From Spirochaetia bacterium (GTDB lineage Bacteria; Spirochaetota; Spirochaetia; Sphaerochaetales; Sphaerochaetaceae), in the NCBI GenBank assembly GCA_009930325.1, contig RZYO01000003.1, forward strand, positions 1-64,000: DNA of 64,000 nt, written 5' to 3'. Every line of letters begins with the position of its first letter. Positions within the stretch are counted from its first letter, which is position 1. The notes below the pieces were generated by a model. It was given only the letters and a program-made list of their open reading frames with translations, had not been told where the DNA came from and searched no databases. Of this stretch, positions 3,050 to 40,416 are shown one piece after another. The translations under genes were made by a program, and so were the position numbers.

Positions 3050-3122
<73 letters not shown>

Positions 3123-3144
3123 TTATGTTCTTCGAACGATTGGT

Positions 3145-3173
3145 ACATTACCTTATTGAGCCATTTCTGTCAA
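3145..3173 (-). promoter_or_regulatory. promoter of tRNA-Asn
   Basis: Minus-strand -35 TTGACA (3168-3173), 17-nt spacer, -10 TAATGT (3145-3150), placed about 22 nt upstream of the mature tRNA 5' end. This matches the sigma-70 consensus closely. Confidence 0.8.
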
Positions 3174-3289
3174 TACAATTCTAATAATTTTTTTCTTTTT
3201 TGGCTAGTTTTTTTTACGATATTTAATAAGTATTGAATTTACGTTACTTACATTTTGTTAATCAAAAAAAAATTTTTATTTTAATTTCC

Positions 3290-3318
3290 AAAATAAAAGA
3301 CCCACATAATGTGGGCCT
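3290..3318 (-). terminator. terminator of the 5'-nucleotidase gene
   Basis: Minus-strand hairpin GCCCACAT / ATGTGGGT immediately downstream of the stop codon, followed by CTTTTATTTTGG. Confidence 0.85.
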
Positions 3319-3339
3319 TTATTAAATTGTATTTAACAA

Positions 3340-5148
3340 TTATTTAGCTGGGTAATTCTTTGCTAAGTAATCAGCAAGAACATCACTTAATAGTTCTCTT
3401 TGTGCTAATACTTTTCCAAATTGTGTATATCCATCACCACCAACTGACATAAAGTCATTTGTAGCTACTTTATAAACAGTTGAATCATTTTTGATTGCTA
3501 CACCGTTAGCATAAAGTCTTAGGATACGTTTACCAGGAGCTGCATACTTGTTGTAAACAACTTTTAGGTTAGTTTGAGCATATGAACCTGCTGCATCAGG
3601 AAGATGTGAATAACCATATTCCATAGCTGCATAAACTTCTTTACCAGTTACTTCAGCAACTGTAACAATGTTATTGAAAGGTAGAACTCTAATTACATCG
3701 CCCATTGTTACTTTACCAGCTTCAATGCTAGCTCTAATTCCACCACCATTTGTAATTGCAAAATCAGCGCCTGAAACTTCAGTCATTGCATCACAAATCA
3801 TTGTAGATAGGTTTGTTTTCTTAGTTCTTACATCAGCTCTTTCACCTTGTAATGTTCTTGGTACGTTAGCTACAACAACACTATAAATAGCATCTAAGTC
3901 AGCTTTCTTAGCATCAACATAAGCTTTTACTTGAGGATCTTCAGGAACTGCGATAATACCATAAGCACTTGCTAGTGGGCTACTTGCTGGATCTACAACA
4001 TCAGAAGCTTTAATTAAGAATGCGTTTTCTGAAACAACTTTTTTATTCTTAACTAGAACATCAACAACGCCTAGATTTTCCATATATTCACCAGTTTGAA
4101 CAATCAATGTGCCATTTACATATTTACCATTAGGTAATTCATCATGACTATGACCATCTATCCATAAATCAATACCATCGATATTTTGGCAAACTAGTTC
4201 ACTTGTTAATCCACTAGGACTATTTTTATCCATACCGAAATGACCTAATACTACTACGTAATCAGCTAATTGATGAGCCATATCAATTGCATATTGTGCA
4301 TTTTGAACTACTAGAGGGCTATCAAAAGTTAAACCTTTTACGTTATTTGGATTAGTTGTAACAGTTGTATCAGGAGTTGTTAAACCAATAACAGCAACTT
4401 TGAAACCATTAAAGTTATAAATTTGGTAAGGTTGGAATAATAAGTTACCTTTGCTATCTAATACGTTAGCAGATAAAACTTTTACATTAGAATATTCTTT
4501 AGCAATTTGAGCTGCTTGTAAAATTCTGTCTAAACCATAATCAAATTCGTGGTTACCTAAAGCGATTGCATCATAACCTAACATGTCGATTAATACTGCA
4601 GCTGTTTCACCTTTATATAGGTTAACTAAGTTACTACCAGAAATTGCATCGCCAGCATCTAATAATAAAATATTATCTGTAATACTTCTTGCAACTTGCA
4701 TCATAGTAGATAGTCTTGAATAGCCAATATTTGAATCTGTTGCTTCGAGTCTACCATGTACATCATTAGTATGAACAATAAATAAGTCGAAAACATCATG
4801 TCCTTCAGCTTTAACAATTTCTTTTACACCGTAAGGATAAACAACTTCAGGTTCTTTCTCTTTAACAACTGTAACTACTTTAGCTTCTTCTTTTACTTCC
4901 GCTTTAGGAGCTTCTTTCTTTTCAACAGGAGCTACTACTTTCTCTTCAACAGGAGCAACTACTTTTTCTTCAACAGGTGCAGCTACTTCTTTTGCAGGAG
5001 CTTTTTCTGGTGCAGGAGCTACAGGTTTTACAACTGCTGCAGCTGGTACTTCTTCAACAGGCTGAGGTGTTGACTTACATCCTATTACGGAAACGATGAG
5101 CAATGTTACTAACAATGCTGTCATTAATTTACTTGAAAAACGTTTCAC
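3340..5148 (-). CDS. lipoprotein 5'-nucleotidase / UshA-family phosphoesterase
   Basis: Surface or periplasmic enzyme predicted to dephosphorylate nucleotides or related phosphoesters. A GTG start at 5148 is chosen because AGGAGG (5155-5160) lies six bases upstream; longer in-frame starts would bury the signal peptide. A hydrophobic signal peptide ends in the lipobox VIGC (Cys24). An Ala/Pro/Glu/Lys-rich linker of about 80 residues with repeated APVEEKVV units follows. The calcineurin-like metallophosphatase domain has VHTNDVHGRLE, DAGDAISG, GNHEFDYG, GHFGMD and DGHSHDELP. The C-terminal 5'-nucleotidase domain has NGGGIRASIEAGKVTMGDV and MSVGGDGY. Family assignment is firm; the substrate could be nucleotides, UDP-sugars or cyclic nucleotides. 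Confidence 0.93.
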   Translation of the reverse strand: MKRFSSKLMTALLVTLLIVSVIGCKSTPQPVEEVPAAAVVKPVAPAPEKAPAKEVAAPVEEKVVAPVEEKVVAPVEKKEAPKAEVKEEAKVVTVVKEKEPEVVYPYGVKEIVKAEGHDVFDLFIVHTNDVHGRLEATDSNIGYSRLSTMMQVARSITDNILLLDAGDAISGSNLVNLYKGETAAVLIDMLGYDAIALGNHEFDYGLDRILQAAQIAKEYSNVKVLSANVLDSKGNLLFQPYQIYNFNGFKVAVIGLTTPDTTVTTNPNNVKGLTFDSPLVVQNAQYAIDMAHQLADYVVVLGHFGMDKNSPSGLTSELVCQNIDGIDLWIDGHSHDELPNGKYVNGTLIVQTGEYMENLGVVDVLVKNKKVVSENAFLIKASDVVDPASSPLASAYGIIAVPEDPQVKAYVDAKKADLDAIYSVVVANVPRTLQGERADVRTKKTNLSTMICDAMTEVSGADFAITNGGGIRASIEAGKVTMGDVIRVLPFNNIVTVAEVTGKEVYAAMEYGYSHLPDAAGSYAQTNLKVVYNKYAAPGKRILRLYANGVAIKNDSTVYKVATNDFMSVGGDGYTQFGKVLAQRELLSDVLADYLAKNYPAK

Positions 5149-7228: not shown

Positions 7229-9049
7229 CTAATTACTACTATCATCACTTTTTAATACAGCTAAGAAGGCTTCTTGTGGAATTTCTACACTTCCAACCAT
7301 TTTCATTCTCTTTTTACCTTCTTTTTGTTTTTCAAGCAACTTTCGTTTTCTTGAGATATCTCCACCATAACATTTTGCAGTAACATCTTTTCTATATGCT
7401 GTTATAGTTTCTCTTGATACAATTTGTCCACCAATAGCAGCTTGTATTGCAATTTTATATTGTTGTTTATGAATTTCATTTTTTAATCTTTGACAAACTA
7501 CTTTTCCTCTTGAAACAGCATTTCCTCTAAAGACTAATTGTGATAAAGCATCAACTTGATCTCCATTAACTAATATATCTAATCTAACTAAATCAGTTCT
7601 TCTATAACCAATTACTTCATAGTCAAAAGAAGCATATCCTCGAGAAATTGATTTAAGTCTATCATAGAATTCAAACAATACTTCAGCTAATGGCATTTCA
7701 TATTGAAGTTCAACTCTTTTTGAATCTAAATAACTCATATTAGTTTGAACGCCTCTTTTTTCCATAGCCAAATTCATTATTGGCCCAATATATTCAGCTG
7801 GAGTTATTACATTCGCTCTAATATAAGGCTCTTCACTATATTCAACTAACATTTGATCTGGATATTCTAATGGGTTATCTATTTCCACAATTTCATTATT
7901 CTTTTTTAAATGAACTTTATATTCTACAGAAGGGGAAGTAAATACTATTGATAAATCAAACTCTCTTTCAATTCTCTCTTGTATAACTTCTAAATGCAAT
8001 AAACCTAAAAATCCACATCTAAATCCAAAACCTAAAGCTGCTGAAGAGTCTTTTTCATAAACAAGAGAAGCATCATTTAATTTCAATCTCTCAATTGCGT
8101 TTAATAACTCTTCATAATCATTAGCATCAACAGGGTAAATGGAGGAGAAAACAACAGGTTGAACATCTTTAAATCCTGAAAGAGGTTCTTTCGCCAAATT
8201 TGATAATTTAGTTACAGTATCACCTACTCTAATATCACCAATTTTTTTAATTCCAGCAACAAAATAACCTACATCACCGGCATGTAAAGTACCAGTTTTA
8301 ATAAAACCTAATTGGAAAATACCAACTTCTTCAACTTCAAAATCTGCTCCACCATGCATAAATCTAACGATATCGCCTTTTTTCAAACAACCATCAAAAA
8401 CTCTACAGTGTACAATAACACCACGATATGAGTCATAATGAGAATCAAAAATTACAGCTTTTAAAGGATCTTCATCAACACCTGATGGTGGTGGAATAAA
8501 TTCAACTATTTGTTCAAATAATTGATCAACGCCTAATCCAGTTTTTGCACTAACTTGAACACATAAATCAGGGTCTAAACCTAAATCATGGTTTATCATT
8601 TCTAAACACATTGGAATATTTGCAGAAGGTAAATCCACTTTATTAATTACAGGAATAACTTCTAAATTATGTTCCATTGCTAAATATAAATTAGCTAAAG
8701 TTTGTGCTTCAACACCTTGAGAAGCATCAACTAATAATAAAGCACCTTCGCAGGAACTAATAGCTCTTGATACTTCATAGCTAAAGTCAACATGGCCGGG
8801 GGTATCAACCAAATTTAAGGTATAGGTTTTACCATCTTTTGCAGTATAAGGGATAGTGACAGCTTGGCTTTTAATTGTAATGCCTCTTTCTCTCTCAATA
8901 TCCATATTATCTAATACTTGTTCTTGGGCAGGTCCTCTTGTATTTCCTAATTTCGCTTTTTCAATAAATCTATCGGCCAAGGTAGATTTACCATGGTCGA
9001 TATGCGCAATAATACAGAAGTTTCTTGTCAAAGAATAATCGTGTGTCAT
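7229..9049 (-). CDS. lepA: elongation factor 4 (LepA GTPase)
   Basis: Ribosome-bound translational GTPase that remodels post-translocation or stalled ribosomes. G-domain motifs are intact: G1 AHIDHGKSTLADRF, G2 RGITIKS, G3 DTPGHVDF, G4 NKVDLP and G5 SAKTG. The LepA-specific C-terminal domain is present (KRKLLEKQKEGKKRMK, then VGSVEIPQEAFLAVL). Length 606 aa is standard. AAAGGA lies upstream of the ATG, inside the intergenic gap to ftsH, so the two genes are probably cotranscribed. Confidence 0.98.
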   Translation of the reverse strand: MTHDYSLTRNFCIIAHIDHGKSTLADRFIEKAKLGNTRGPAQEQVLDNMDIERERGITIKSQAVTIPYTAKDGKTYTLNLVDTPGHVDFSYEVSRAISSCEGALLLVDASQGVEAQTLANLYLAMEHNLEVIPVINKVDLPSANIPMCLEMINHDLGLDPDLCVQVSAKTGLGVDQLFEQIVEFIPPPSGVDEDPLKAVIFDSHYDSYRGVIVHCRVFDGCLKKGDIVRFMHGGADFEVEEVGIFQLGFIKTGTLHAGDVGYFVAGIKKIGDIRVGDTVTKLSNLAKEPLSGFKDVQPVVFSSIYPVDANDYEELLNAIERLKLNDASLVYEKDSSAALGFGFRCGFLGLLHLEVIQERIEREFDLSIVFTSPSVEYKVHLKKNNEIVEIDNPLEYPDQMLVEYSEEPYIRANVITPAEYIGPIMNLAMEKRGVQTNMSYLDSKRVELQYEMPLAEVLFEFYDRLKSISRGYASFDYEVIGYRRTDLVRLDILVNGDQVDALSQLVFRGNAVSRGKVVCQRLKNEIHKQQYKIAIQAAIGGQIVSRETITAYRKDVTAKCYGGDISRKRKLLEKQKEGKKRMKMVGSVEIPQEAFLAVLKSDDSSN

Positions 9050-30844: not shown

Positions 30845-32326
30845 TTATAGTTCTCCCTCTAGCATTTCAATTGCTCTTTCTATTCTTTTAAAACATTCTT
30901 CCTTACCCAATAAATTTACTGTATCATTCATTGGTAAACTTACATTACTTGATGTTAATGCAACTCTTAAAGGTGTAAAAACACCATTTACTTTTACATC
31001 CATCTCTGTTGCAAGATTTGAAATTTCATTTTCGATTTCTTCAAATGGAAGTTCTTTATCTAATCCATTTCTTAATATTTCATAAGCTTTTACTAAAGCT
31101 TTTGTGGTTGATTCTAAATCCATTTTTTTAGCAACAAACATTTCTTTGTCTGCTATTCCTGGATTTGTAAATAAGAAACTTGATAAGTCAACTACATCAG
31201 ATAAAACTTTTAATCGTGGTTTTACACAAGGTATTAATTGATCGAGTATAGCATTTTGTTCATCTGTAATTTCGTCATTTATAAAACTAGCTTTTACTAA
31301 ATATGGGATTAATTTTTCTTTTAATTCCTCATCACTCAATTTTCTAATATATTGACCATTAAACCAATCTAATTTCTTATAATCAAAAATTCCAGGAGCT
31401 TTATGAATTTTATTAATATCGAAAACTTTCTCTAATTCTTCTTTACTAAAGAATTCTGTACTCTCATCATAAGACCAGCCAACTAAAGTTACATAATTCA
31501 TTAATGCTTCAGGCAAATAACCTTTTTCTCTAAAATCTCTTACACTAGTAGATCCGTGTCTTTTTGATAATTTTTGACCGTCTTTTCCCATAACCATAGG
31601 CAAATGGCAATAAATTGGAGGTTCCCAGCCAAAAGCTTTATATAAAATAATATGTAAAGGTCCTGAAGGAATCCATTCTTGAGCTCTCATTATATGAGTA
31701 ATTCCCATTAAATGGTCATCAACAACATTAGCTAAATGATATGTTGGAAATCCATCACTTTTCAATAAAATTGGATCTGGTGATACATCTTTATTTTTTC
31801 TTGTAATGTCTCCCATTAATACATCATGAAAAGTAGTTTTCCCTTCAGTCGGTACTCTTAATCTAATTACAGGTTTAATACCTTGTTTTTCATACTCAGC
31901 TCTTTCTTCTGCACTTAAATTACTACAATGTCTATCGTAACCTTGTGTTGAACTTTTATTTGCTTTTTGTTCTTCACGAACTTTTTCTAATCTTTCTGGA
32001 GTACAATAGCAATAATATGCCATGTCATTATCGACTAGCATTTTTGCATATTTCTGATACAGATCAAAACGTTCACTTTGAATATATGGACCGTATTGGC
32101 CGCCAACAATTGGACCTTCATCCCATTTAACATCTAACCAGTTCAAAGTTTGATATAAATCATCTAATGATTCTTCACTATATCTTTCTCTATCAGTATC
32201 CTCAACCCTAAGTAGAAAATCTCCGCCTTGAGATTTAGCATAAAAATAATTAAATAATGCTGTTCTTACTCCACCAATGTGCTGTAACCCGGTAGGAGAG
32301 GGTGCATAACGTACTCTAACACTCAT
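30845..32326 (-). CDS. gltX: glutamyl-tRNA synthetase
   Basis: Class I synthetase charging tRNA-Glu, and possibly tRNA-Gln in organisms using the GatCAB route. N-terminal RYAPSPTGLQHIGGVRTALF carries the HIGH-type motif, KLSKRHGS is KMSKS, and VEDTDRERYSEE is typical. Length 493 aa is normal. AAAGGAG lies upstream of the ATG. It is first of the gltX-glyS-tyrS run. Confidence 0.97.
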   Translation of the reverse strand: MSVRVRYAPSPTGLQHIGGVRTALFNYFYAKSQGGDFLLRVEDTDRERYSEESLDDLYQTLNWLDVKWDEGPIVGGQYGPYIQSERFDLYQKYAKMLVDNDMAYYCYCTPERLEKVREEQKANKSSTQGYDRHCSNLSAEERAEYEKQGIKPVIRLRVPTEGKTTFHDVLMGDITRKNKDVSPDPILLKSDGFPTYHLANVVDDHLMGITHIMRAQEWIPSGPLHIILYKAFGWEPPIYCHLPMVMGKDGQKLSKRHGSTSVRDFREKGYLPEALMNYVTLVGWSYDESTEFFSKEELEKVFDINKIHKAPGIFDYKKLDWFNGQYIRKLSDEELKEKLIPYLVKASFINDEITDEQNAILDQLIPCVKPRLKVLSDVVDLSSFLFTNPGIADKEMFVAKKMDLESTTKALVKAYEILRNGLDKELPFEEIENEISNLATEMDVKVNGVFTPLRVALTSSNVSLPMNDTVNLLGKEECFKRIERAIEMLEGEL

Positions 32327-32646: not shown

Positions 32647-33546
32647 ATGAAAAAATATTTCATTGTTTTTTTATTAACTTTTTTTTCTTTAACCTCTGTT
32701 TTTAGTGCCGGAACAAAAGAAAATATCACCACAAATAACAGTTTTGAATTTATTGATTCCTACAACAGAAGCGTTGAAATAAAAACAAATCCACAAAGAA
32801 TTATTTCACTTGGACCCAATATCACTGAAATAATAAGTGAATTAAATTTTGAAAAACTTGTTGGAAGAACCGATTATTGTGATTATCCTGAGAAAGTATC
32901 ACAAGTAAGTAGTATTGGAACTATTATGAATCCTAATATTGAAAAAATAATTGACCTTGAACCAGATTTAGTTATTGCTTCAGTACATGCTCCAAAAGAG
33001 TTATTAGAAACTCTCGAAAAAATGAATATCCCGGCTATCGCTATCTATGATGATAATTCACTAGAAGGTTCTTATAATCTTATTTCTAAAATTGGATACA
33101 TAATGAATGAAGAAAAAAAAGCAAATGATATTATAAATAGTAATAAAGCTTTAGTAGAAGAAGTAATTTCTAAAACAAAGAATTTAGATAAAAAAAGTGT
33201 TTATTATGTTATTAGTTTTGGCGAATGGGGCGATTTTACAGCAGGTGGCAATACTTTTATTGGTAAAATGATTAATTTAGTTTCAGCTACAAACATTGCA
33301 GAAGATGTAAATGGTTGGAATTTTAGCATTGAACAGCTAATTGAAAAAGATCCTCAAATAATTATTGTTTCAAAATATTATGATTCAAAAAACCAATTTA
33401 TAAACACTAAACCATATGCTGATTTAACAGCTGTGAAAGAAAATAGAGTTTATGAAATAGATAACAATCTACTTGATAGACAAGGAATTAGAAATGCTCA
33501 AGGATTACTTGAATTAGCAAAAATTATTCACAATGAAGCTTTCTAA
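32647..33546 (+). CDS. btuF: cobalamin (or corrinoid) ABC transporter substrate-binding protein, BtuF-like
   Basis: Periplasmic_binding_2 (helical-backbone) protein with a signal peptide ending in SVFSAG. Family segments are RIISLGPNITEIISEL, LVGRTDYCDYPEKV and KIIDLEPDLVIAS. Length 299 aa fits BtuF. The sequence alone would also permit an iron-siderophore or heme ligand; the cobalamin riboswitch just upstream decides for corrinoid. Translation start 32647 is set by AGGAG at 32634-32638. It overlaps the permease gene by 14 nt. Confidence 0.88.
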   Translation: MKKYFIVFLLTFFSLTSVFSAGTKENITTNNSFEFIDSYNRSVEIKTNPQRIISLGPNITEIISELNFEKLVGRTDYCDYPEKVSQVSSIGTIMNPNIEKIIDLEPDLVIASVHAPKELLETLEKMNIPAIAIYDDNSLEGSYNLISKIGYIMNEEKKANDIINSNKALVEEVISKTKNLDKKSVYYVISFGEWGDFTAGGNTFIGKMINLVSATNIAEDVNGWNFSIEQLIEKDPQIIIVSKYYDSKNQFINTKPYADLTAVKENRVYEIDNNLLDRQGIRNAQGLLELAKIIHNEAF

Positions 33547-34555
33547 GAGAAAAACAAATAATTTAATACTAGTAATTTTATTTATTTTCGGAATTTTAAT
33601 AATCTTTAGTTCAATTACTAAAGGAAGTGTTAAAATTCCTTTAAAAGAAGTTCTTGCTATTTTTTTTAATACAAATGAGAAAATAGTATCAGCTTCTCAT
33701 AAGTATATCATTTTAAATCTTCGAATACCTAGAACAATAAGTGCCTTGATTGTTGGGATGAGTTTAGCTATTTCAGGAGCAGTTTTTCAAACATTATTTA
33801 AAAATCCACTGACAGAACCTTATCTATTAGGGATTTCTTCAGGGGCGGCGCTTGGGGTTGCAATTGCTAGTGTATTTAATCTATTTGCCCTTATTCCTGG
33901 AATCTGGGGAACCTTCTTTTTTGCATTCATTTTTGCATTATTAACTTCATTATTAATTTTTTCACTAGCAGGTAAAAACCGTACCTCCTTATTAATTCTA
34001 CTTTTATCAGGATTAGCTATTAACTTTTTTCTTTCTGCTTTAAACTCTTTATTACTTTATTTTAACAGAGACAAACTACAAAATATTATTTACTGGCAAA
34101 TGGGAAGTTTTAGCTTAAGTTCATATGAAAAAATTATATTCACTCTACCAATAATAATTCTTATAATAGTCCTATTACTTACAAAAACAAAAGAATTAGA
34201 TGTATTATTATTAAGTGATGATACTGCTTTATCTATTGGCTTAGATGTAAAAAAACAAAGAATTATTCTTTTATTATTAACTACACTTTTAACAAGTATT
34301 TGTGTTGGATTAGCCGGAACAATAGGCTTTGTTGGATTAATTATTCCACACATTGTGAAATTGATTTTTGGAGTAAAACACAAATTTGTTTTACCGCTCT
34401 CATTGTATGTAGGGGCAATATTTACACTTTTATGCGATATTATTTCTCGTACATTAATTGATAATGCTGAAATCCCAATAGGTATAATTACAGCATTATT
34501 TGGAGCTCCTTTCTTTTTATATATTCTTAGAAAAACAAAGGCTAGTATTTTATGA
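33533..34555 (+). CDS. btuC: cobalamin ABC transporter permease, BtuC/FecCD family
   Basis: About ten membrane segments. FecCD-family signatures are LRIPRTISALIVGMSLAISGAVFQTLFKNPLTEPYLLGISSGAALG split over the first third, and GTIGFVGLIIPHIVKL near residue 265. 340 aa is typical. It starts 14 nt inside btuF and its stop overlaps btuD by four bases (ATGA), so the three genes form one translationally coupled operon. Confidence 0.93.
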   Translation: MKLSKRKTNNLILVILFIFGILIIFSSITKGSVKIPLKEVLAIFFNTNEKIVSASHKYIILNLRIPRTISALIVGMSLAISGAVFQTLFKNPLTEPYLLGISSGAALGVAIASVFNLFALIPGIWGTFFFAFIFALLTSLLIFSLAGKNRTSLLILLLSGLAINFFLSALNSLLLYFNRDKLQNIIYWQMGSFSLSSYEKIIFTLPIIILIIVLLLTKTKELDVLLLSDDTALSIGLDVKKQRIILLLLTTLLTSICVGLAGTIGFVGLIIPHIVKLIFGVKHKFVLPLSLYVGAIFTLLCDIISRTLIDNAEIPIGIITALFGAPFFLYILRKTKASIL

Positions 34556-35310
34556 ACATATATATAAAAAATCTAAATTATTCCTATTTTGAAAATACAA
34601 TATTCAATTCATTGAATTTAAGATTTGAAGAAAAAAAATTCTATGGAATATTAGGATCAAATGGATGTGGAAAAACTACATTGATAAAAACTATATTAAA
34701 GTTATTAAAAATAGAAAACGATTCAATTTTATATAACAATGAAGATCTCAATAGTTTAAAAAGAGAAGATATTGCAAAAAAAATAGCATACGTAGAACAA
34801 TCCACACAACTTGTTCCACAAATAAGCGTATTTGAATATATTAGACTTTCAAGATACTTGTTTAATGATTCTTTAGAATCAGAAACAATAAAAATTAATA
34901 AAGTAATCAATCAATTAAAAATTAGTAAATTAAAAAATAAATATTTAAATGAATTAAGTGGAGGAGAATTACAAAAAGTAATTATTGCTAGAGCAATAGC
35001 TCAAGAATCAAAAATATTAATTCTTGATGAACCAATTGCTAATTTAGACCCACTCCACCAATTAGAAATCATGACATTATTAAAAGATTTAGTTTTAAAA
35101 AATAATTTAACAATTATTACAACTCTTCATGATATTAATCTTTCTTTATCATTTTGTGATGAAATAGTATTATTAGACAAAGGAAAAAAACTACAAGGAA
35201 ATGTAAATGATATTATAACCCAATCAAATATCAAAGAATTTTTCAATTTAGATAGCCATTTTATAACAAATCCTTTTACAAAAAAACCTTTTGTAATTCT
35301 TAATCATTAA
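34552..35310 (+). CDS. btuD: cobalamin ABC transporter ATPase, BtuD/FecE-like
   Basis: Walker A is GSNGCGKTTLIK (residues 35-46), the signature is LSGGELQKVIIARAIA, Walker B is ILILDEPIANLDP, and the switch His is in TTLHDINLSLSFCDE. 252 aa is standard. The last 11 bases overlap, on the opposite strand, the end of the alpha/beta hydrolase gene, leaving no room for a classical terminator. Confidence 0.92.
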   Translation: MNIYIKNLNYSYFENTIFNSLNLRFEEKKFYGILGSNGCGKTTLIKTILKLLKIENDSILYNNEDLNSLKREDIAKKIAYVEQSTQLVPQISVFEYIRLSRYLFNDSLESETIKINKVINQLKISKLKNKYLNELSGGELQKVIIARAIAQESKILILDEPIANLDPLHQLEIMTLLKDLVLKNNLTIITTLHDINLSLSFCDEIVLLDKGKKLQGNVNDIITQSNIKEFFNLDSHFITNPFTKKPFVILNH

Positions 35311-36181
35311 AAAAGTCTACTACTGAGTCATTACATAAATTTCTTTTTTCTTCATCATTAAAGTATTGGATTAAATGATTCGCTCCATCAATTATTAAGC
35401 TAGATAAAGGAGACTTAATAGATGATTCTAACAATTTTTTTACTTTTTCACTATTAACAGACATATCTTTAGATCCAAAAACACAAAATGTTTTAGAGCT
35501 TAATCTATTTAAAGAGTTTAGAGCTAATTCTCTTACTTTATTAAATTCACACAATTGTTTTAAAATAATTATTGACCAATAATTAGTACCAAGATATTGA
35601 TCATCACCTTCTTCTCTTTCACAAATACCCCAAAAAGAAGAATCCATTTTCCAAGGAATACTTAACTCTTTTTTAAAAAGCATTAATGTTTTTAATTTAA
35701 ATTTTGAAAAGCCTCTTATATAAAAAGCTGGGGCGATTAATGCAACTTTTTCTATATCAAATTCTTTCGCAACAATAGTAGCAATCAGAGAGCCCATTGA
35801 ATGACCTACTACATAAACACACTCATATTCTTTCTTTAAATAACCTATACTAGATCTAGCTACAGAGAGCCAATCTTCTGCCCTTGTTTTAATAAAATCT
35901 TCTTGATTTACACCATGTCCTGGATATCGTGGACAGTATACATCATAATTTGAATTATAAAATTTCAATCCTAAATATGACATTTCTCCAGGGTAACCTT
36001 GATATCCATGAAGTAATAAAACAGCACAATTTGTCTTTGTTTCATGCACCATTTTCCATGGAGTAGCGCAAAGAACAGGTTTTGATTTTTCCATATGATA
36101 ATATGGCTCTAAAATATTATATAATTCATCACTATGTGTAAGTCTTTTATAACCTGGACAAAGATTTAGTATTTCGTTCAT
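35300..36181 (-). CDS. alpha/beta hydrolase (lysophospholipase/carboxylesterase-like)
   Basis: Serine hydrolase with the nucleophile elbow VGHSMGSLIA (about residue 125), oxyanion-side LLLHGYQGYPGEM, YPGHG, acid-side FGSKDMSVNSE, and catalytic His in DGANHLIQY. It has no signal peptide. The pattern resembles the monoglyceride lipase / carboxylesterase Est30 group (Hydrolase_4). The substrate is unknown. GAGAG lies upstream of the ATG. A terminator of the rloB gene sits only about 20 nt before the start, so expression comes from read-through or an unseen promoter. Confidence 0.85.
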   Translation of the reverse strand: MNEILNLCPGYKRLTHSDELYNILEPYYHMEKSKPVLCATPWKMVHETKTNCAVLLLHGYQGYPGEMSYLGLKFYNSNYDVYCPRYPGHGVNQEDFIKTRAEDWLSVARSSIGYLKKEYECVYVVGHSMGSLIATIVAKEFDIEKVALIAPAFYIRGFSKFKLKTLMLFKKELSIPWKMDSSFWGICEREEGDDQYLGTNYWSIIILKQLCEFNKVRELALNSLNRLSSKTFCVFGSKDMSVNSEKVKKLLESSIKSPLSSLIIDGANHLIQYFNDEEKRNLCNDSVVDFFND

Positions 36182-36253: not shown

Positions 36254-36889
36254 TTACATTCCAATAGTTCTTTGATTTTGAGTAAAATTAGCTGCTCCAC
36301 AATTTTCAATTATGGCTAGATGTAAATCAATATAATTTATTGCAGGTAAGCCTAAAACGGCTTCGACAGCTTCATTATATAATCTGGAATTTCTATTTGC
36401 TTCATTATCTTTTACACAAATCTTATTATAAAAATCTATTCCATCAGTTCTTAAATATGTAGCAGTGTCTTCAAAACCAGGGAGTTCTTTTTGAATAACT
36501 CTATTTATACTAGAACTATCTGTAATTAACCCGTTAGCGCCTCTAAAATGGAATAAATACCATAAATTAATACCAGGATTACTCCAACATAAATGAACTC
36601 TTTTTTTCTTTGCAATAGGAATATATTTCTTTACTGTTTGAGAATCAACATTCAAATCCTCAAAAGAAAATACTAACCAAACCTCATTAAATTTACCTTG
36701 AGTTCTACTTCTTGAAGCTAGTGAAATTAATTTTTCTAAATCTTTTTCTCCACCTGCCCATTCAACACTTAAATTTGAATATCTTGCGTCTTTTCTTACT
36801 TGAGAGAAAAACAAAGCTTCTTTTTCACTTGCACCAACAATTAACATAGTTTTTCTAGGTGCTAGATTTTTTCTTTTTCTAGTTTTCAT
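36254..36889 (-). CDS. RloB-like protein with altered active-site residues
   Basis: 211 aa. The order of segments is that of RloB (AbiLii-type): a basic N-tail RKRKNLAPRKTMLIVGASEKEALFF, then FNEVWLVFSFEDL, then HLCWSNPGINLWYLFHFRG. From memory the family consensus in these places is CEGEKTE, VFDxDD and SNPxFExWLLLHF. Here they read VGASEKEA (18-25), VFSFEDL (73-79) and SNPGINLW (103-110), so acidic residues expected for a Toprim-like nuclease centre are missing in three places. GGAGGA overlaps the rloA stop, and the start is three bases after it. RloA/RloB pairs are associated with phage defence; the function of this variant is unknown. Confidence 0.75.
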   Translation of the reverse strand: MKTRKRKNLAPRKTMLIVGASEKEALFFSQVRKDARYSNLSVEWAGGEKDLEKLISLASRSRTQGKFNEVWLVFSFEDLNVDSQTVKKYIPIAKKKRVHLCWSNPGINLWYLFHFRGANGLITDSSSINRVIQKELPGFEDTATYLRTDGIDFYNKICVKDNEANRNSRLYNEAVEAVLGLPAINYIDLHLAIIENCGAANFTQNQRTIGM

Positions 36890-36892
36890 AGC

Positions 36893-38146
36893 TTATTTTT
36901 CCTCCTTACCATCTACAAAGTAAAAATCACTTAATAATGGTAGAGCACCAAAGGCACCATTCATATATTGTTCACTAGTTAAGTCTCTGCTCTTTGAATA
37001 TCTAAATTCAGCTAGAGAGAAATAAACAGTCTCACTTTTTTCATTTTTTTGAGCAAAATAAACTCCATCTCTTCTTAATAATCCTGGGACTAATAAAGAA
37101 GGATTACAATCAACAGCAAGTAATTGAGAACCTGTTTCAGAATTACATTCTTCAAATATTTCAATTATATGCTTTAATACATACGGATGTAATAACATAC
37201 CAAAGTCATCAATTATCAAGGTTTTCTGATCTTTAAAGCTTTCAAAAAAAGCTATTCCTATTAAACATAAACGTCTTAACGATAAACTTTCAAGTGAATA
37301 ATATGTAGCATAAGATTGCATTACATTAGTATGAGAGAAAACTAAACGATTATTCATTATTTGAATATTTTTAATATCAGTAATATCTAAGGACCATAAA
37401 AAATTAATTAATTGTTGAACCCAAGAAGGATGCTTTGTAATTTGATCCATTATATATTGTTCACTTAGAGTTGAAACACCCATTGGAAGTATATTTAAAT
37501 TATTATCAAACCAATTTTTCACAGGACCTGCTGTTTCACCATCTTTAAATGCAGACTCACTTAAAAAAGCATGTTTTTCATCTATTTTTTTTATAAGTCT
37601 TTTTTTCTCACCTCTATACATTTTTCCAAACCTATATTTATAAGATATTGGAGAATCTTCATCTGCTAAAGGATCAACGACTTCTGTTCTTTCAAACATT
37701 AATTTTTTACTTCTATTAAATACAAAGTATAGTGATTCATGTGTGATTTTTTTATTATTTGCAGAAAAAGAATATAAGGCAATTATAGATGGCTCTTCAT
37801 CTAAATTATTTTGATTCCCTTTTTCAAGCACAATACTAATAGAAATAGTACAAGGTGTATTCTTCTCTTTACTATAAGCAAAACTAGTTCCAGAAAGAAT
37901 CTGTAATGGATTCTCTACTTCTTCAGTTGAACTTAAAATACTTTTTAATGATTCTAAAGCACGAACAAATGAACTCTTACCAGCACCATTTGGGCCAATA
38001 ATTGCTGCACTCTTAATCAAGTTAAGTTTATCGTTTACTCCAACTATCTTTGATTCTGGAAATCTATTATCCTTTATGGCTTCAAACGAAATTGTTTGTG
38101 GTTCCTTAACGGATTTAAAATTCGCAATAGTCATATCTAATAACAT
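36893..38146 (-). CDS. RloA-like AAA/ABC-type ATPase with altered catalytic motifs
   Basis: 417 aa. It begins with the SMC-like N-terminus MTIANFKSVKEPQTISFEAI and an intact Walker A GPNGAGKSSF (51-60). The later motifs deviate. The signature segment reads ESLSL (286-290) where the family usually has ESxGT. Walker B reads LIIDDF (310-315) with Asp in place of the catalytic Glu. The switch His region reads LLAVDCNPSLL instead of a TTH-type motif. The end (YMNGAFGALPLLSDF) is the typical AbiLi/RloA C-terminus. GGGAGGGAAG precedes the ATG, which is 29 nt after the PHP gene, so PHP, this gene and rloB probably share one mRNA. Confidence 0.8.
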   Translation of the reverse strand: MLLDMTIANFKSVKEPQTISFEAIKDNRFPESKIVGVNDKLNLIKSAAIIGPNGAGKSSFVRALESLKSILSSTEEVENPLQILSGTSFAYSKEKNTPCTISISIVLEKGNQNNLDEEPSIIALYSFSANNKKITHESLYFVFNRSKKLMFERTEVVDPLADEDSPISYKYRFGKMYRGEKKRLIKKIDEKHAFLSESAFKDGETAGPVKNWFDNNLNILPMGVSTLSEQYIMDQITKHPSWVQQLINFLWSLDITDIKNIQIMNNRLVFSHTNVMQSYATYYSLESLSLRRLCLIGIAFFESFKDQKTLIIDDFGMLLHPYVLKHIIEIFEECNSETGSQLLAVDCNPSLLVPGLLRRDGVYFAQKNEKSETVYFSLAEFRYSKSRDLTSEQYMNGAFGALPLLSDFYFVDGKEEK

Positions 38147-38175
38147 GCGACTTCCCTCCCTTACTACCTCTATTT

Positions 38176-38811
38176 TTATAAATATATTTTTCCCATTCTC
38201 TTAATAAGATAGGGATATTTTCCTAATTGTTCCAAATAAATTATTGGTAATTTAAAATTACCATGATTATCTGTTGATATTAAATCAGCAATTTCATTCT
38301 CAACAAAATCTACTGCTTTACCATTGGCCAAACTTGAAGCATTAACTTGTATTAATACTCCCATATCAATCAATTTCTCTAAATGAGGAGAGCCAACCTT
38401 CAAATAAGGATATCTCTCAACATGAGCTAAGATTATTATTATTCCTGATTTTATTAAATTATAAAACTTTTCAACAAAATCTTTTGGAGGTAAAGTAGTG
38501 GGTAGCTCAACTAATTGATATTTAGATGAAATAGGTATCCCAACTATTCTAGATTGATTTAAATAATAATATTCAGATCCCAATAATAAGTCTATGCCAA
38601 AATTCAATGCAATATCTTTTACTTTCAAATAAGTATCTTTGATATTTGCAATATCAGTTTTAACATAAGGATTATACAAATGTGGAGTACATACAATCTT
38701 AGAAAACCCTGCTTTAGAATAAACTTCTAGCATTTCTTCAATTTGATCAAACTTTAATACTCCATCATCTATGTTCGGAAGTAAATGTGTATGAAAATCA
38801 ATGTAACTCAT
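38176..38811 (-). CDS. PHP-domain phosphatase, CpsB/YwqE-like
   Basis: Metal-dependent phosphoesterase; the CpsB branch dephosphorylates tyrosine on polysaccharide-assembly kinases. PHP motifs are DFHTHLLPNIDDG (residues 4-16), CTPHLYN, GSEYYY, LAHVERYPYL and STDNHG. The ATG at 38811 is chosen because the homology starts there and TATACT ends 6 nt before it. A longer frame upstream encodes a hydrophobic stretch through a terminator and is rejected. 211 aa is a little short but complete. It lacks a capsule-gene context and is followed by rloA/rloB. Confidence 0.85.
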   Translation of the reverse strand: MSYIDFHTHLLPNIDDGVLKFDQIEEMLEVYSKAGFSKIVCTPHLYNPYVKTDIANIKDTYLKVKDIALNFGIDLLLGSEYYYLNQSRIVGIPISSKYQLVELPTTLPPKDFVEKFYNLIKSGIIIILAHVERYPYLKVGSPHLEKLIDMGVLIQVNASSLANGKAVDFVENEIADLISTDNHGNFKLPIIYLEQLGKYPYLIKRMGKIYL

Positions 38812-38947: not shown

Positions 38948-39331
38948 CTATTCTTTAATAATCTTACAATTCATTTGTTCCCAAAATAATTCAATTTTAT
39001 TCCCAGAAATAATTAAATTTGGAAAGCCAACTTTTTTTTTATGATCAAAAAGCCATTCAAAAACTAATTCCTTTTGAAAAACATCTAACCCATTTAAAAC
39101 AAAAACTTGATCAAAAGCCTCACTACTTATCCACCTCTTTAGTTGAGAAAAAGCAACATCAACTTTAGATTCTTTATATTTCTTTATAATTATTTCACTA
39201 CTTGGAAAAACTACAAAAGAAGTGGAAAAATCAATAATTCCAATTTTACCTTCACTTCTGTATTTTTCAAAAACTTCTTTTGCATTTGAATTTTCTACAA
39301 GCAATATTTCTTTTTTAACTTGAGCTTCCAT
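38948..39331 (-). CDS. hypothetical protein, 127 aa
   Basis: I do not recognise this protein. It is cytoplasmic, with no signal peptide, and shows alternating beta/alpha segments: ILLVENSNAKEVFEKY, IGIIDFSTSFVVFPS, FDQVFVLNGLDVFQKEL and NLIISGNKIELFWEQ. It starts eight bases after the stop of the CsgG/LpoB-like lipoprotein, with AAGGATAT upstream of the ATG, so the two genes are cotranscribed. Confidence 0.75.
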   Translation of the reverse strand: MEAQVKKEILLVENSNAKEVFEKYRSEGKIGIIDFSTSFVVFPSSEIIIKKYKESKVDVAFSQLKRWISSEAFDQVFVLNGLDVFQKELVFEWLFDHKKKVGFPNLIISGNKIELFWEQMNCKIIKE

Positions 39332-39339
39332 AAATATCC

Positions 39340-40416
39340 TTAATTACTTTTAATTTGGTTTTCTGCTAAATTAGTATCATATTTATATTGTTCCATTCTA
39401 CTTAACTGTTCATAAGCATCAACCTTATTATAATAATTATATACTTCTCTCATTCTATCAATAGCCCCTTGTCTATCTCCTAAGGCTTCAAGTACTAATG
39501 CAGAATTATATCCAGCTGCATATAAGCGAGAATTATTCCAGGCCATACTAAAGTTATCATAAGCAACTCTTAAACTACCTTTTTTTGCTGCTTCCATACC
39601 AGCATCAAAGAAAGTATTTTTACTCTTATCAGAAATTAATGAAATACTTTTTGTTACATATTGAGGAGTCAAATCACTTACAATTTCTTTTTCTCCTTGA
39701 GTTAAAGCCTTATCATATAATGATTGCATTGAAGGTAATGAAATTAAATTTTCTTCATATTCAACTTCATTTGTTAAAGTCTTCTTAAAAGAAGAAGATG
39801 CAATAATAGAACCTGTATTGATATCAATTACTTTATAGCTATAACTTACATTAGCTTGTTGTACTATTGTAACTTCTCTCTCTGAAGATTCAATGTACTC
39901 TGGTTGTGTTAAATCTGTAGTATAGTCAGGATTTTTAATGAGTTTATAATCGCCAATGATAGGATATTCTTTGTAATCAAAATAATCTATTTGACTTACT
40001 AATAAAGCATCCGCACCTAAATCTCTTAATTTACTTATTGCATTAATTCCATATTTTAAATTATTAATATAACCATCAGTTATAACAGGCTTAATAATAT
40101 TAAAATAAGAAGTTTTATTTAAATCACTATATAAATCGTATGTGAAATTAGCTGCAATATTTGAAGCAATTCTTCTATCATATCCGGTAAAAACTCTATC
40201 TTCAAAATCATCATATTGAATAGTAACAAAACTATCTGGGAATGGTGGTACATCTACAACTTTCATTGAAGCAATAGCTAAATTCTTGTATTGAGTTAAA
40301 TCATATTTTGCAGGTTGCAGATATGATACTGTTACAGACGTTGCACAAGAACTTAAAACTAAAATTGATGTTATAAAAATTAAAAAAGATGAAACCTTTT
40401 TTTTAGAAACATTCAT
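39340..40416 (-). CDS. CsgG/LpoB-like lipoprotein with C-terminal TPR-like repeats
   Basis: 358 aa. A signal peptide ends in the lipobox LSSC (Cys23). The central part (residues about 30-260) follows the CsgG/LpoB-type alpha-beta pattern: YKNLAIASMKVVDV, IASNIAANFTYDLYSDL, FNIIKPVI, LGADALLVSQIDYFDY, and SYSYKVIDINTGSIIASSSF. Residues about 280-350 form helix pairs typical of tetratricopeptide repeats (GSLRVAYDNFSMAW, AAGYNSALVLEALGDRQGAI). The role is probably at the outer membrane or envelope; the partner is unknown. It is followed by the 127-aa gene. Confidence 0.8.
   Translation of the reverse strand: MNVSKKKVSSFLIFITSILVLSSCATSVTVSYLQPAKYDLTQYKNLAIASMKVVDVPPFPDSFVTIQYDDFEDRVFTGYDRRIASNIAANFTYDLYSDLNKTSYFNIIKPVITDGYINNLKYGINAISKLRDLGADALLVSQIDYFDYKEYPIIGDYKLIKNPDYTTDLTQPEYIESSEREVTIVQQANVSYSYKVIDINTGSIIASSSFKKTLTNEVEYEENLISLPSMQSLYDKALTQGEKEIVSDLTPQYVTKSISLISDKSKNTFFDAGMEAAKKGSLRVAYDNFSMAWNNSRLYAAGYNSALVLEALGDRQGAIDRMREVYNYYNKVDAYEQLSRMEQYKYDTNLAENQIKSN

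Follow-up and report, generated by a model that had tools for sequence, protein, structure and literature searches.

The genes considered here lie in the window, by which we mean the whole 64,000-nucleotide stretch analysed (contig RZYO01000003.1, positions 1 to 64,000), from a spirochaete of the family Sphaerochaetaceae. Three of them are adjacent on the minus strand: a CpsB-like PHP phosphatase of 211 residues (38176 to 38811, from its ATG), the AbiLi-like RloA of 417 residues (36893 to 38146) and the AbiLii-like RloB of 211 residues (36254 to 36889). The gaps are 29 nt between PHP and RloA and 3 nt between RloA and RloB, and the three open reading frames stand where the original prediction had placed them. 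The PHP protein matches Pfam CpsB_CapC (E 2.1e-31), RloA matches AAA_21 above its cut-off (E 4.7e-16), and RloB matches PF13707 (E 4.9e-14, 53.4 bits against a gathering value of 31.5). The PADLOC AbiLi model matches residues 1 to 413 of RloA (E 4.1e-56) and the AbiLii model matches RloB (E 2e-7); among the NCBIfam profiles, no model scored above cut-off for either protein.

The surroundings of these genes are conserved as well. Also on the minus strand, a CobO-like protein without a P-loop (38948 to 39331) and a predicted lipoprotein (39340 to 40416) lie upstream, and an alpha/beta hydrolase (35300 to 36181) and the glutamyl-tRNA synthetase GltX (30845 to 32326) lie downstream. The order in Sphaerochaetaceae is (PdxA), lipoprotein, CobO, PHP, RloA, RloB, a membrane/LuxR-type regulator, alpha/beta hydrolase, GltX and GlyS; it is the same across genera and forms a same-strand housekeeping run ending in gltX. 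(The names PdxA, CobO, GltX, GlyS and LuxR type, and ManC below, were assigned by reading sequences.) Across loci, RloA and RloB overlap or have only a few nucleotides between them, and usually no more than 10 nt separate RloB from the start of the regulator. This regulator (for example, 3110 to 3991 of locus L059 and 7650 to 8534 of locus L074) combines membrane helices at its N-terminus with a LuxR-type HTH at its C-terminus; it starts 0 to 30 nt past RloB in most genera, and the window and two further genomes, G001 and G003, lack it. The interval between RloB and GltX in the window holds the hydrolase and a BtuFCD/FecBCD-like ABC transporter operon on the plus strand (32647 to 35310, between the hydrolase and GltX), which breaks the usual order.

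The gene before PHP aligns with the CobO (cob(I)alamin adenosyltransferase) of relatives. When the window copy was compared with those of 11 other loci, the gene was short (105 to 131 aa) and without a P-loop in genera g1, g12 and g17; the P-loop is kept (GDGKGKT/S and similar) in g3, g5 and g20. The P-loop-less form, which is conserved within g1, is possibly a second pseudo-enzyme at the locus.

Both Rlo proteins were aligned with canonical relatives, including three from the window's own genome: 81 core orthologues and 18 canonical relatives for RloA, and 82 and 19, respectively, for RloB. The motifs on which the original prediction was built occur in the sequences exactly as quoted there, namely GPNGAGKS (Walker A), ESLSL, DDFG and VDCNP in RloA and VGASEKEA, VFSFED and SNPGINLW in RloB. 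That the catalytic residues are merely shifted can be ruled out, as the alignments with 18 to 19 canonical relatives show substitution in both proteins.

RloA is an ABC ATPase of the Rad50/SMC/PtuA type. Its Walker A motif (residues 51 to 58, 37973 to 37996; this and all motif positions below are on the minus strand) is kept in every copy, orthologous and canonical, and reads GxNGxGKS in 81 of 81 orthologues. The window protein has none of the signature ESxGT, the Walker-B Glu and the switch His. At the signature, where ESLSL (residues 286 to 290, 37277 to 37291) stands for the canonical ESxGT, the Gly is present in 18 of 18 canonical proteins and 4 of 81 orthologues, with Ser in the other 77. 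The catalytic Glu of Walker B (residues 309 to 314, 37205 to 37222) is likewise present in 18 of 18 canonical proteins; no orthologue has it, and all 81 carry Asp (Asp314 in the window). The His of the switch loop, here VDCNP (residues 345 to 349, 37100 to 37114), is found in 17 of 18 canonical proteins and 0 of 81 orthologues, where it is Cys in 77 and Val in 4. The substitutes are themselves fixed, in 77 to 81 of the 81 orthologues over 21 genera. Degenerate sites of ABC proteins bind ATP and hydrolyse it poorly, and loss of the Walker-B Glu and switch His with an intact Walker A resembles these. Judging from these residues, hydrolysis by RloA is probably impaired and ATP binding kept, with the caveat that a Walker-B Glu-to-Asp change can leave residual activity.

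RloB, predicted to be a Toprim-type protein, has neither the EG nor the first acidic residue of DxD. Its first Toprim motif, VGASEKEA (residues 18 to 25, 36815 to 36838), replaces xEGxTEx; EGxTE occurs in 19 of 19 canonical proteins (once as QGxTE) and in none of the 82 orthologues. The second, FSFED (residues 74 to 78, 36656 to 36670), replaces FDxDD, and the first Asp of DxD is present in all 19 canonical proteins and 4 of 82 orthologues. The proposed loss of RloB motifs holds for the first two; the third (NPxFExW) is variable across orthologues and not uniformly lost. These changes suggest that core RloB is nuclease-dead. The last Glu of EGxTE is still present in 66 of 82 orthologues, D77/D78 are kept in many, and residual metal binding by RloB is possible. 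The orthologues also conserve FxQMRKDCRYxN, H114, CG and a basic N-tail.

AlphaFold2 models of the two proteins had pLDDT values of 91.7 (RloB) and 86.9 (RloA). The RloA model matches PtuA, Rad50, SMC heads and OLD structures (best E, 2.8e-10), and the best fold match of the RloB model is the OLD Toprim domain 6nk8, a weak one (E 0.026). Toprim acidic residues sit at strand ends, and the altered RloB motifs are at the ends of strands 15 to 19 and 69 to 75 in the model. A sequence search of solved structures gave no convincing relative of RloB, and for RloA it gave only short matches in the P-loop region. RloB has also been linked to OLD_TOPRIM by HHpred (PMC10440598).

Orthologues of RloB, all of similar length, were found in 79 of 91 Sphaerochaetaceae genomes; a class-wide draw of 395 gave orthologues of RloA in 87 Sphaerochaetaceae genomes and in 4 from two other families (f3 and f4). 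Named relatives are Sphaerochaeta, Pleomorphochaeta and related spirochaete bins, on which the family assignment was based, and full-length RloA adjoins RloB wherever the extent of the contig allows. Some members of the family can do without the pair: 12 of the 91 Sphaerochaetaceae genomes, mostly small ones, lack it, which counts against the housekeeping reading preferred below. The original prediction had asked whether other spirochaetes share the altered residues; they are common to the Sphaerochaetaceae orthologues and the four f3/f4 genomes. The f3/f4 copies are without the Walker-B Glu, the switch His (Val instead), EG and DxD and retain an ESLG signature; the Gly-to-Ser change in the signature is confined to Sphaerochaetaceae. 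If the root lies between the canonical and core proteins, the losses look stepwise, with the nuclease and hydrolysis residues going first and the signature Gly changing to Ser later, in Sphaerochaetaceae.

In trees of both proteins, core RloA and core RloB each form a single clade apart from canonical pairs (SH-aLRT 100). Genus labels change 20 times for 21 genera, which is the minimum, so that each genus stays together. In 16 close pairs, dN/dS was 0.01 to 0.14 for RloA and 0.006 to 0.24 for RloB, a few pairs being saturated at synonymous sites and giving no value. Over 34 complete loci, the mean identity of RloA (0.63) is second only to that of GltX (0.71), with RloB at 0.49 and the lipoprotein, hydrolase and PHP at 0.33 to 0.43. 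The fixed replacements, the trees, the dN/dS values and the synteny together indicate vertical inheritance under strong purifying selection and not decay. That both partners have lost catalytic residues might suggest a defunct defence pair that is simply decaying, but we give this practically no credence: almost every copy has an intact frame (two RloA matches carry one stop, both in draft genomes), the replacements are fixed, and dN/dS is well below 1 in every pair tested. The view of the original prediction, that this is a repurposed nucleotide-binding complex rather than a decaying one, is borne out by the fixed substitutions, the intact frames, dN/dS of about 0.01 to 0.24, the vertical inheritance and the stable synteny.

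A second possibility is that the pair still serves in phage defence, killing or stalling by a chemistry other than Toprim cleavage. The strength of the AbiLi match and the AbiL-like pairing and tight spacing of the two genes are in its favor. We nonetheless consider it very unlikely, since across 21 genera the core pair is fixed, inherited vertically and in conserved synteny within a run of housekeeping genes, a distribution unlike that of the patchy, horizontally moving AbiL. Viral contigs yielded only two distant relatives, at 24 to 25% identity, and no close ones were seen. Furthermore, canonical RloAB pairs with all motifs coexist with the core pair in Sphaerochaetaceae, the window's own genome among them, and these do occur patchily. 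That genome has three more RloB genes with EGxTE (contigs C35, C68 and C398; loci L184 to L186), and in at least L184 and L186 the gene adjoins an RloA with canonical ESxGT, DE and His.

The PHP phosphatase has an intact active site in the window (H7, H9, D15, H44, E80, H130, D181 and H183, conserved in 59 to 60 of 60 copies) and lies before RloA in 57 of 76 Sphaerochaetaceae loci. All four f3/f4 genomes have the genes as ManC, Wzz/BY-kinase, PHP, RloA, RloB; the BY-kinase domain there matches TIGR01007 in three of the four, and in the fourth (G138) the kinase gene appears broken or frame-shifted. From these arrangements it could be argued that RloAB, with the phosphatase and the BY-kinase, controls polysaccharide export as a regulatory subcomplex of a Wzz/BY-kinase-CpsB system. 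This seems to us decidedly improbable. PHP is absent from 19 of the 76 loci, where RloAB is retained, and a search for a CpsB homologue anywhere in the genome found none in 17 of those 19 genomes; an obligate partnership with RloAB is ruled out by this retention after PHP loss. What PHP does track is the BY-kinase: in 60 RloAB-bearing genomes both were present in 43, neither in 12, and 5 were discordant (Fisher p 2.6e-8). On the tree the two change in the same way in five to six independent pairs and never in opposite ways, with a median sign-test p of 0.06 from these few pairs. Since its presence follows that of the kinase, PHP is probably the BY-kinase's phosphatase, and RloAB an independent neighbour. 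The Poly_export HMM had no match in the 12 genomes without PHP and BY-kinase, a weak point against the polysaccharide reading, as the same HMM missed a BY-kinase-positive genome. The link between PHP and RloAB drawn in the original prediction needs correcting: PHP is conserved next to RloAB and its active site is intact, but a functional partnership is improbable, as PHP is lost with the BY-kinase while RloAB persists.

In genome G003, which belongs to the same genus as the window, six CpsB-like PHP genes lie away from RloAB (contig C1 2582529-2649250 and 19111) and none beside it. In several genera, a BY-kinase lies about 40 to 52 kb from RloAB (G005, G025, G054, G058, G070, G039, G034 and G040). 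We draw nothing from this linkage; in the one genome read, unrelated housekeeping genes lie between.

Gene order also raises the question of a link to translation. Most Sphaerochaetaceae loci and both f3 genomes have gltX downstream of the pair and on its strand; in the three genomes of genus g14, where PHP, the regulator and the hydrolase are gone, gltX starts 3, 3 and 8 nt past RloB. The Toprim effector of PARIS, AriB, cleaves tRNAs (PMC12409363). A dead Toprim RloB that had retained the tRNA binding of Toprim defence effectors, ATP-gated by RloA and co-transcribed with gltX, might sense or sequester tRNA or modulate its charging. This translation-linked regulator, a special case of the domesticated complex favored below, is in our view unlikely: it relies on gene order, the LuxR-type gene and the hydrolase intervene in most genera, gltX was not found at the locus in the f4 genomes, and AriB and RloB are only distantly related. 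The gltX proximity and the tRNA cutting by AriB nonetheless make tRNA a reasonable first candidate ligand, at low confidence. A more specific version, in which an ATP-locked ABC dimer with a non-cutting Toprim protein binds RNA, possibly tRNA, and tunes translation with the gltX operon, is also unlikely.

The reading we prefer, and hold to be fairly probable, is that core RloAB is a domesticated RloA-RloB pair (AbiL type, split OLD family), vertically inherited and nuclease-dead, which works as an ATP-dependent housekeeping complex, most likely on nucleic acid. On this view, an ancestor shared by Sphaerochaetaceae and at least two further families of the class would have had an ancestral defence pair fixed in its chromosome. 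RloB would have lost its Toprim nuclease residues and RloA those for hydrolysis (Walker-B Glu and switch His), with vertical inheritance under strong purifying selection thereafter. RloA may bind ATP through its intact Walker A and form a long-lived dimer of the ABC/SMC type that hydrolyses ATP slowly or not at all; this dimer would position RloB, a non-cutting pseudo-nuclease with a conserved surface. Such a complex might sense or clamp its ligand, most likely nucleic acid, in an ATP-dependent way as part of a housekeeping process. We infer the defence-pair ancestor, ATP binding without fast hydrolysis, the RloA-RloB complex, the nucleic-acid ligand and the housekeeping role; nucleic-acid binding in particular is a guess from the predicted fold and a few conserved basic residues.

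Core RloAB offers a clean case in which both partners of a defence-type ATPase-nuclease pair appear to lose their active sites and become conserved core genes, with an intermediate stage of residue loss still visible in related families. It provides a direct route to asking what the RloA-RloB architecture does besides cutting. On the practical side, profile tools (here PADLOC AbiLi, E 4e-56) would probably credit most Sphaerochaetaceae genomes with an AbiL-like defence component, despite the absence of the known chemistry. None of the open-access papers searched described an RloAB that is catalytically dead or part of the core genome.

Among known systems, AbiL (AbiLi-AbiLii) has the same adjacent arrangement of an AAA_21/ABC-type ATPase followed by an RloB-family Toprim-like protein, and Pfam and PADLOC recognize the core pair as such; the core orthologues differ in having the nuclease and hydrolysis residues replaced and in forming a vertical, syntenic core locus where AbiL is patchy. 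PARIS AriA-AriB (class 4 OLD) is likewise a split ABC ATPase and Toprim protein with genes side by side, but AriB is an active tRNA nuclease (PMC12409363), and the PADLOC AriA match to the window RloA (1.4e-12) is far weaker than that of AbiLi (4e-56). The likeness to CpsB/Cps4B PHP phosphatases with their BY-kinases, in family, intact active site and BY-kinase co-occurrence, belongs to the PHP neighbour and not to RloAB. GajA (Gabija, class 2 OLD) is described as having likely lost ATP hydrolysis and kept nucleotide binding (PMC12796447) and can serve to model a switch that works by ATP binding; its Toprim nuclease, however, is still active, and its role is in defence. The precedent found in the papers searched is Cran1, an OLD-family ATPase of Sulfolobales with a non-defence, apparently essential role in the cell cycle (PMC12796447). 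Cran1 withstood replacement of its Walker-B glutamates by alanine (PMC12796447), which counts against inferring loss of hydrolysis from residues. Like core RloAB, it appears to be a defence-family ATPase-Toprim combination taken over for a conserved non-defence role in one lineage (PMC12796447). Cran1, however, kept catalysis: in this single fused protein all active-site residues are present, and ATPase and nickase activities have been demonstrated, whereas core RloAB consists of two proteins with both sites altered.
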